Origin: a virus | Length of the DNA: 35,982 nt | Direction: 5' to 3' (one strand) | IMG/VR virus record: IMGVR_UViG_3300021962_000014 | Location: 1 to 35,982 of that record | Program-made: the position numbers and the translations under genes | In this document: piece after piece, positions 16,650-35,982 of the stretch | How the letters are laid out: each line of letters begins with the position of its first letter | Position numbering within the stretch: position 1 is the stretch's first letter | Notes under the pieces: generated by a model | Seen by the model: only the letters and a program-made list of their open reading frames with translations | Database searches by the model: none | Told to the model about the DNA's origin: nothing

Positions 16650-16838
16650 TTACGAGGGGTTAATGTTCGCGTTTTGTTTTTTCTCGATTGCCTGTTTGAC
16701 TTCATCGCGATGCACCGCCACGTCTTTGGGTGCATCAATGCCAATTTTTACCGTGTCGCCTCTGATCTGAATGACCGAGAAACTGATGTCATTACCGATC
16801 CAGATTTTTTGTTCTACTTTGCGTGATAGTACGAGCAT
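16650..16838 (-). CDS. csrA: CsrA/RsmA-type translational regulator
   Basis: The 62-aa product starts MLVLSRKVEQKIWIGNDISF and contains VKIGIDAPKDVAVHRDEVKQ, with the conserved RNA-binding Arg 44 and Leu 4. CsrA dimers bind GGA-bearing hairpins near ribosome-binding sites and change translation and mRNA stability. ATG 16838 has GGAGG ten bases upstream. The frame is open further upstream, but that part translates structured RNA and is rejected. The leader carries six GGA triplets, two of them in the ribosome-binding site, which suggests autoregulation. A phage copy could reset host carbon, motility or lysogeny control. Confidence 0.93.
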   Translation of the reverse strand: MLVLSRKVEQKIWIGNDISFSVIQIRGDTVKIGIDAPKDVAVHRDEVKQAIEKKQNANINPS

Positions 16839-16987
16839 TGTTGTGAATCCTCCATGCGGGTGTAATGGCTGGTTTGCCTGTCTTTCCGTAAGCTCCGTGG
16901 CTTGCAGCCGTTCGAGGCCCAAGCAACACACTTGCAGCACGGAACCTCTACCGAGTCCCCGATCCGAACTGTATGAAAGATCGGGGA
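16839..16987 (-). promoter_or_regulatory. Structured GGA-rich leader of csrA
   Basis: On the minus strand this leader contains a perfect 9-bp hairpin (TCCCCGATC, 14-base loop, GATCGGGGA; 16956-16987). It also has a second, branched region in which TCCGTG pairs with CACGGA and GCTTG pairs with CAAGC around GCC-TCGAAC-GGC. GGA occurs six times, including ACGGA twice and ATGGAGGAT at the ribosome-binding site. This is the pattern expected of a CsrA-bound leader. No U-tract or promoter is obvious. Confidence 0.5.
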
Positions 16988-16988
16988 T

Positions 16989-17031
16989 GGCCACGGGGTG
17001 GAATCGAACCACCCACTTGCCAACCGTGGCC
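16989..17031 (-). ncRNA. tRNA-like acceptor/T-arm minihelix
   Basis: On the minus strand GGCCACGG (17031-17024) pairs over 8 bp with CCGTGGCC (16996-16989). Between them are ten unpaired bases and a textbook T-arm: stem GGTGG, loop TTCGATT, stem CCACC, with the acceptor 3' strand stacked directly on the T-stem as in tRNA. D-arm, anticodon arm and encoded CCA are missing, so this is no functional tRNA. It lies nine bases after the stop of the SSB-like gene. It may be a tRNA relic or an RNase P processing signal. Confidence 0.55.
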
Positions 17032-17040
17032 GGTTGCGAA

Positions 17041-17727
17041 TTAGAAGGGCGTGCCTTCGGGCCAGTCGTCATCGTTGACGGCTTGAGGCTTGAAGCCAGC
17101 CGCGGCCATCTTGGCTTGCTGATGTGCCAGGCTGTTGGATTGCTTGTAAGCCTGCGTTTCTTCTTTAGTCAAATGGTTCACAACCTTCGGAGGCTCTTCG
17201 CCTGTCACCTCAACACATTTGGCGGCAAGGTCGAGAATCCATTGCGGAATGCTATCCTTCGGCGGATCGTCATATGACCAGCAGAACTCGTCGCATTCAG
17301 GCTCGAATGGCACCATGCCGCGTGGGATGCGGCCAAGGCTGGAAATGTCGGTGTAGGTCTTATCGCCTCTTACCGTGTGCGTCACATTGACCATCACACG
17401 CATCGACAACAACTGTTCTGGGTTGAATGTGCCGTTTTCACTAGGGTACGATGAACCCAGAACGGGCTTGAACAACTTATAAAATCCGCTTTTTTCATTA
17501 AGCGATGTGCTGACTGTTTTAGACAGTCTGAAATTGCCATTGCCTTCCGGCATTGGCTCATCAAGCTCAAACACGAGGATGAGCTTACCTTGTGGCTTAT
17601 AGGTTGGGTTGTAGGTGTTAATCTGCGTGCCAACATAATAGACTCTGACCAGTTTGCCCTGGTACGAGCCTTCGGGGCACGGCGTGTATTCTTTGGTGGT
17701 TTTATTTACGAGTGTTGGGATAGGCAT
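17041..17727 (-). CDS. SSB-like phage replication protein
   Basis: The 228-aa product (MPIPTLVNKTTKEYTPCPEG...) resembles phage proteins encoded next to replication genes, with a probable OB-like beta core: YQGKLVRVYYVG, KLILVFELDEPM, a SLNEKSGFYKLFKPVLG segment, and MRVMVNVTHTVRGDKTYTDI. The C-terminus is acidic and ends DDDWPEGTPF, like the protein-interaction tip of SSB proteins. Single-stranded DNA binding is inferred from this tail and the position, not from a definite motif. ATG 17727 has AGGAG upstream. Confidence 0.55.
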   Translation of the reverse strand: MPIPTLVNKTTKEYTPCPEGSYQGKLVRVYYVGTQINTYNPTYKPQGKLILVFELDEPMPEGNGNFRLSKTVSTSLNEKSGFYKLFKPVLGSSYPSENGTFNPEQLLSMRVMVNVTHTVRGDKTYTDISSLGRIPRGMVPFEPECDEFCWSYDDPPKDSIPQWILDLAAKCVEVTGEEPPKVVNHLTKEETQAYKQSNSLAHQQAKMAAAGFKPQAVNDDDWPEGTPF

Positions 17728-22464: not shown

Positions 22465-22508
22465 ATAAGGCATGAATAATGAACGATTTAGCCTCTGATA
22501 CTTTTATT

Positions 22509-22550
22509 CTCCGGAGCAAAAGGCCGCAAGTTCAAATCTTGCCGGGTGTA
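22509..22550 (+). other. attP: attP core: 3' half of tRNA-Arg(CCG)
   Basis: The plus strand reads as the 3' half of a tRNA: anticodon loop CTCCGGA (anticodon CCG), stem GCAAA, variable AGGCC, T-stem GCAAG, T-loop TTCAAAT, T-stem CTTGC, acceptor CGGGTGT and discriminator A. The bases before the loop (TTATT) do not pair with GCAAA, so identity starts at the anticodon loop, where tyrosine recombinases often cross over. It ends 34 bases before the integrase frame. Insertion would restore a complete tRNA-Arg at the host site. Confidence 0.8.
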
Positions 22551-35215: not shown

Positions 35216-35982
35216 TGTCAACCTCAGTCAAAGTGATAAATGATTTCAGGCTCTTGGCGTTGCCGATTGCCACGGACTCATAACCGCCTTCAGCGGCGTT
35301 CTCGTAATCGGTTTCGTTGGGCGTGATGTAGCCGTTTTCGCCCGGTCTTACAGGAGCAGGCCACGTGTCCGGCACTTCGTCATCAAACACGGTGACAACT
35401 GTACACCTGCAATTTGGGTGGAATGGCGGAAATTTCAGATCTTTGTAGGTCTTATTATTGCCGTTTTGGCCAAACGAGCCACCCTTGGGAATCTTGGGAC
35501 ATTGCCGATGGATCGCATGGCACAGCGGGCAGGCATCGCTAGATAGTAATAGCTCATAGCCCGCAACAAAATCATAGCCCTGCGTTGCCGCCAATTGGCC
35601 TTGGTTGTAGGCTCGTGCTGATTCTGTGACAGCGATCCGACGGGCACGCCATCGGCTATTTTCATCAACCCACTTGGCAACACGGTTGACGGTATCGCCT
35701 GCGGTTTCACCCGACTGGATAGAGGCCGCTATATCGCCTCTGATGCCCTCTAGCGTCGTGTTGAGGTCACGGGTGAAGGTTTGTACCGTTTCCTCGCAAA
35801 GGTCAAGGGCGGCGGCCCTAGCGGCGTCTATGACCTCCGGAGCCATCACTAACCAATCATCGGCAAGCTGTTGACCGATCTCAGCAACGGCAACCTTGCC
35901 GCCGTCTTCGATGTAGCTTGTGATGTATGGAATGAACCGGCTGGCCATGATCAATGATGCGGATGTCGGGTCAAGCGGCTCC
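35202..35982 (-). CDS. Mu F/SPP1 gp7-like head morphogenesis protein, main part
   Basis: This is the 3' part of the gene that begins at 237 (or 288) on the circle; bases 35856-35982 repeat 1-127. The protein contains TRDLNTTLEGIRGDIAASIQ, RARRIAVTESARAYNQGQLA, the Cys/His cluster DACPLCHAIHRQCP, and HPNCRCTVVTVFDDE, all diagnostic of SPP1 gp7/Mu F minor head proteins. It is thought to enter the prohead with the portal and to affect DNA delivery. It precedes the protease gene. The Cys/His cluster may bind zinc. Confidence 0.9.
   Translation of the reverse strand, partial: EPLDPTSASLIMASRFIPYITSYIEDGGKVAVAEIGQQLADDWLVMAPEVIDAARAAALDLCEETVQTFTRDLNTTLEGIRGDIAASIQSGETAGDTVNRVAKWVDENSRWRARRIAVTESARAYNQGQLAATQGYDFVAGYELLLSSDACPLCHAIHRQCPKIPKGGSFGQNGNNKTYKDLKFPPFHPNCRCTVVTVFDDEVPDTWPAPVRPGENGYITPNETDYENAAEGGYESVAIGNAKSLKSFITLTEVDNGQV
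35856..35982. repeat. Right copy of 127-bp end repeat
   Basis: Identical to 1-127. Removing one copy gives a circle of about 35,855 bp and restores an unbroken head morphogenesis gene. Confidence 0.95.

Follow-up and report, generated by a model that had tools for sequence, protein, structure and literature searches.

Why should a phage place the acceptor and T arms of a tRNA, without the anticodon, in front of csrA? The question is raised by the IMG/VR virus record IMGVR_UViG_3300021962_000014, whose 35,982 nt form the window analysed here. On its minus strand, between an ssb-like gene and csrA, positions 17031-16989 read GGCCACGG-TTGGCAAGTG-GGTGG-TTCGATT-CCACC-CCGTGGCC, which bears out the 8-bp acceptor-like stem, 10-nt spacer and T-arm recognized in an earlier reading of the sequence alone (the sequence-only reading). 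We use the term TLS for such anticodon-less tRNA-like structures. The 5' strand of the acceptor (17024..17031) pairs with its 3' strand (16989..16996), all eight pairs being Watson-Crick; the short spacer (17014..17023) replaces the D and anticodon arms and contains a D-loop-like GG at 17020-17021. The T-arm (16997..17013) has a 5-bp stem and a 7-nt loop, and was firm in thermodynamic folding (pair probability about 0.9). An alternative 9-bp partner for the 3' acceptor strand lies 86 nt upstream, inside the ssb-like gene. The bases ATCC come next after the 3' strand, a CCA tail not being encoded, and folding places a hairpin, TCCCCGATCT...GGATCGGGGA (16956..16987, minus strand), immediately 3' of the element. 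The whole minihelix (16989..17031, minus strand) starts 9 nt past the stop codon of the ssb-like gene and ends about 150 nt before csrA.

The TLS recurs at the same place in related phages. A terminase query returned 80 loci, most at 70-83% identity, and a strict T-arm motif was searched for in these loci and the window (870 kb in all), giving 26 matches on the sense strand and one on the antisense strand. Apart from two, one within the ssb-like gene of locus L023 and one in the distant locus L068, all sense matches fell at one of two sites, A and B, and every locus with either site has csrA downstream, with other genes intervening in some. Site A lies downstream of the ssb-like gene, about 110-190 nt upstream of csrA in most loci, and its spacer is replaced by a hairpin-containing insert of 30-60 nt. 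Site B, about 140-175 nt upstream of csrA in L023, L053 and L059, takes the same minihelix form as the window element, (A)CCACCT-ATCGGCATGAG-CCGGG-TTCGACT-CCCGG-C-AGGTGG(T). Its spacer resembles that of the window, and in both the spacer is 10-13 nt long and lacks an internal hairpin. The same form was found behind differing upstream genes in L201-L203, L206, L210, L211 and L213, some of these being duplicate contigs. At site B of another four loci (L003, L009, L027 and L030) there is instead an ordinary hairpin of the type GCCAGTC-TGAAAT-TATGGCTGGC; in L003 and L009 similar hairpins are repeated close by, in GG-rich intergenic DNA. The exact T-arm/acceptor pattern of the window had no other occurrence in the viral contig collection, where searches with the ssb-like and primase proteins likewise found no relatives.

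Is the structure itself maintained? Eighteen TLS were aligned by hand, with the spacer masked. With the 5' acceptor strand chosen by complementarity in isolated cases, and anchored independently by the conserved sequence on either side in two large groups, changes on both sides were seen in 10 of the 12 pairs, and 92% of cells were paired. Doubly changed cells numbered 59, compared to 15 in shuffles, and the covariation score was 0.833, compared to 0.183 in shuffles and 0.12-0.18 in every slid register. The T-arm had standard pairs in 18/18 structures, while acceptor pair seven was mostly open. A GG occurred among the first five spacer bases, the position of D-loop G18G19, in 17 of the 18, and U(-1) and G(+1) were found in 14 and 13 of them, respectively. 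The covariance comparison that the sequence-only reading had proposed was therefore strongly positive, with compensatory changes in both stems at the same syntenic place before csrA. The TLS is a real, conserved phage RNA element and not a product of chance.

To what extent does the association with csrA reach beyond these relatives? The csrA of one relative, used as a query, gave 80 loci, which formed 75 clusters at 90% DNA identity. A sense TLS was present within 500 nt before csrA in 20 of the 75 clusters, a set picked by similarity to one csrA and not a survey of all phages; the antisense strand gave none, the downstream side one, and the interval from -1500 to -1000 one. Among the TLS-bearing clusters were less related phages: L115 and L155; L168-L173, in which a long hairpin and a small D-arm accompany an 8-bp acceptor, TGAATCGG/CCGATTCA; L141 and L163, whose structures resemble class II tRNAs altered in the anticodon arm; and L150, which has a true tRNA-Met about 40 nt before csrA, in the same place as the TLS. 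Elements with tall T-arms that ARAGORN does not call as tRNA were also seen in L111, L127, L141, L157 and L163, several of them tRNA-like with an enlarged or altered anticodon arm.

In one of the two large groups, group 1, the TLS is part of something larger. Site A lies there inside a region of about 330 nt (L009 2830-3190 and homologues), located between the ssb-like gene and csrA, in which long stretches are invariant. A covarying hairpin follows the TLS, in the same place as the hairpin at 16956..16987 of the window, and the region closes with a terminator-like hairpin. Rfam gave no match to the structured RNA of L009, even at E 1, and by its sequence features the L009-type region looks like a new structured noncoding RNA. 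In both large groups, the interior of the TLS varies more than any other part of the surrounding region, which is otherwise conserved.

Known RNA families did not account for the element. ARAGORN found no tRNA and no transfer-messenger RNA (tmRNA) in the window, and no tmRNA in 28 loci either. No Rfam family, the C4 RNA families included, matched the window or eight relatives at the gathering score. The best sub-threshold match on the strand of the element was mascRNA-menRNA (RF01684), at 22.0 bits (E 0.022) compared to a gathering score of 42.5 bits; the same model gave the best sub-threshold match to site B of L059 (16.0 bits). On the opposite strand, window positions 16988-17030 (plus strand) weakly matched the Plastid-ycf2 5'UTR family (22.5 bits), as did the TLS of L039 (22.7 bits); the consensus of this model resembles the antisense of a tRNA T-arm. 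The element shares with tRNA an acceptor/T-arm stack with a TTCRANY loop, but a D-arm and an anticodon arm with a 7-nt anticodon loop are absent, the 10-nt spacer being too short for both. Standard tRNA finders and Rfam both miss the phage TLS. A literature search of open-licence papers in PubMed Central found nothing on tRNA-like structures before csrA, and phage TLS at this position are apparently undescribed, which makes their novelty likely but not certain.

Several known systems are nevertheless instructive. The tRNA-like domain of tmRNA has an acceptor, a stemless D-loop and a T-arm, and no anticodon. The phage element likewise combines acceptor and T-arm without an anticodon, but in tmRNA the acceptor strands are hundreds of bases apart, around the tag frame, whereas in the phage TLS their distance from the T-arm is 10 to about 60 nt. 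mascRNA-menRNA has the acceptor, the T-arm and a short D-like part with GG, again without an anticodon, although it is longer and is the 3' product of animal long noncoding RNAs. The t-elements of plant mitochondria are tRNA-like structures at mRNA ends that serve processing rather than translation and are cut by RNase P and RNase Z (PMC11658184). Like them, the phage TLS has a tRNA-like fold and stands at the border between genes, on the transcribed strand, with its pairing kept in relatives; it differs in having no anticodon arm, or a replacement for it, in occurring in phages, in its tie to csrA, and in that cutting is so far a prediction. Model substrates of RNase P made of acceptor and T-arm hairpins have the same geometry as the window element (PMC11143913), but these are synthetic, whereas the window element is natural and lies inside an mRNA leader.

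What, then, might the TLS do? Pairing that is kept without the sequence, the absence of an anticodon, the location on the transcribed strand and the position at a gene boundary all point to enzymes that read the acceptor/T-arm stack. We propose, with a confidence only a little better than even, that the TLS is a structure-only substrate through which host RNase P and a 3' tRNA nuclease process the transcript between the upstream gene and csrA. From its sequence, the window element has a geometry that fits such a substrate, with 12-13 stacked pairs, a T-loop and a D-loop-like GG, and with U(-1)/G(+1) in most relatives. Hairpins of acceptor and T-stem are cut by RNase P at the canonical position (PMC11143913), the ruler of the enzyme matches the stack of T-loop and acceptor (PMC4919913), and its optimum is a 12-nt stem with a T-loop, RCCA and U(-1)/G(1) (PMC10731613). 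In the mechanism we infer, the acceptor and T stems would stack into a helix of 12-13 bp, on whose T-loop the spacer GG would probably dock as in the elbow of a tRNA. Host RNase P would recognize the 5' side by shape alone, and RNase Z or another 3' tRNA nuclease would probably handle the 3' side. The cut would part the upstream mRNA from that of csrA and set the 5' end of the latter, with a predicted effect on csrA expression, in the style of t-elements, in which cuts by RNase P and RNase Z define mRNA ends (PMC11658184; compare mascRNA).

A number of observations weigh against processing by RNase P. In folding, the acceptor of the window element reached a probability of only 0.14-0.41, and a rival hairpin, CAACCG-GCCA-CGGTTG, was nearly equal in energy. 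Its -1 base is C (for an 8-bp acceptor) or G (for 7 bp), not U, and the 3' RCCA that contributes to RNase P recognition is not encoded. In the annotated phage collection, no TLS was found at seven csrA loci (phi297, F116, Vibrio D173 and D279, PTXU04, a Xanthomonas phage and a faecal contig), in five of which csrA directly follows another gene; since these csrA genes of isolate phages are without a TLS, csrA has no need of one. Finally, the placement of group-1 site A within a larger RNA that has its own terminator-like end is as compatible with a regulatory RNA as with a cutting site. This last point leads to the main rival, which we consider unlikely but worth weighing: the TLS would be a domain of a regulatory RNA, either the csrA leader or a processed small RNA, in which the variable internal hairpin gives specificity and RNase P serves only for maturation. 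Both the variable TLS interior and the 330-nt RNA of group 1 agree with this explanation, as does the precedent of C4 RNA of phages P1 and P7, which host RNase P frees from a longer transcript and which combines a constant frame with variable target loops (PMC5320573). C4, however, has an extended stem and lacks a T-loop (PMC10731613), and an antisense target for the phage TLS was not found: in the loci studied, as opposed to the whole genomes of the relatives, the longest complements did not exceed those of shuffles, and an antisense specificity determinant was rejected. The minihelices of the window and site B, with their bare spacers, also leave no internal hairpin to confer specificity. 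A leader that binds CsrA is plausible, but CsrA-type GGA hairpins were not enriched, numbering 16 in the leaders compared to 24.7 in shuffles. This speaks against regulation of this kind and led us to reject the use of such hairpins as a CsrA sponge or for autoregulation.

Could the TLS instead attract tRNA-reading host factors, such as defence nucleases, modification enzymes or EF-Tu, as a decoy for which cutting is unnecessary? Structure maintained without sequence would suit a decoy, and tRNA-targeting defences can be countered by phage tRNAs (PMC10264068, PMC11555353). Yet a single copy in an mRNA leader is a poor dose, the anticodon that anticodon nucleases need is absent, and the constant place before csrA would be left unexplained; we regard this role as improbable. 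The sequence-only reading had offered a degraded tRNA, one that lost its D and anticodon arms, as its alternative. The missing anticodon and the tRNA consensus of the T-loop are what such a remnant would show, tRNAs are common in phages, and near-tRNAs occur in some of the loci examined here (L141, L163). However, this alternative is unlikely because both stems covary at the same syntenic place, with compensatory changes maintained in many phages. The constancy of position and the rarity in shuffles also argue against a chance hairpin: when the whole window was shuffled 100 times by dinucleotides, a T-arm adjoined by an acceptor of 8 bp or more (spacer 8-100 nt) arose twice, and chance was rejected. 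Taken as one explanation, decay or chance is very improbable; the sequences exclude ongoing tRNA decay, and an ancient descent from tRNA is possible. An attachment site (attP) copied from the 3' end of a host tRNA gene has the least credit of all, and we hardly entertain it. Attachment sites in tRNA genes contain the T-arm and the 3' strand of the acceptor, and the window does encode a tyrosine integrase. The element, however, has both acceptor strands and lies 5.5 kb away from the integrase rather than adjoining it, and was rejected as attP in favour of a better candidate found at the integrase itself. This candidate, the 3' half of a tRNA gene, TTCTCCGGAGCAAAAGGCC GCAAG TTCAAAT CTTGC CGGGTGTA, is at 22507-22550 (plus strand), 34 nt before the integrase start. 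Similar segments were found in L159, and in L114, L115, L117 and L223 with an anticodon loop like that of tRNA-Arg(TCT).

Processing by RNase P also allows a wider interpretation, which we put forward tentatively and hold with distinctly less than even confidence. Several phage lineages may have evolved a family of anticodon-less tRNA mimics for the punctuation and control of csrA operons, so that host RNase P activity gates a phage translational regulator, and in one lineage the mimic may have become the core of the new RNA of about 330 nt. If true, phages would possess a tRNA-punctuation device, of a kind described chiefly in organelles and in a small number of long noncoding RNAs, that is linked to a global post-transcriptional regulator. 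The minihelices, the forms with an internal hairpin and the near-tRNAs, all found at one place, form a natural series that lends itself to the study of the minimal tRNA features required by tRNA enzymes. Phage annotation overlooks these structures, since the standard tools miss them.

The neighbouring genes are consistent with a shared transcript. csrA (16650..16838, minus strand) encodes 62 residues and matches Pfam CsrA (8.5e-23), as the sequence-only reading had called it, and phrog_9500; a GGAGG ribosome-binding site lies at 16849-16853. The upstream gene (17041..17727, minus strand; 228 residues) had been labelled SSB-like. In favour of the label, the protein and its relatives have an acidic stretch at the C-terminus ending in PF, as in SSB proteins; against it, there was no Pfam match, and phrog_862, its only match, is of unknown function, which leaves the likeness to the acidic C-terminal tip. 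The AlphaFold 2 model of this protein (predicted local distance difference test score, pLDDT, 48) was too poor for a fold search. No promoter-like site was found in the interval between the ssb-like gene and csrA of the window, and the sole terminator-like site is inside the upstream gene; co-transcription of the two genes is therefore likely, judging from these signals.

A prophage terminase search for the host was uninformative, the best matches having 33-39% identity. The window also encodes a portal, a terminase, a major head protein, thymidylate synthase, a polymerase processivity factor-like protein and a primase. The ends of the record share about 70 bases (1-100 compared to 35883-35982), and because of this direct terminal repeat the genome is probably circular or complete.
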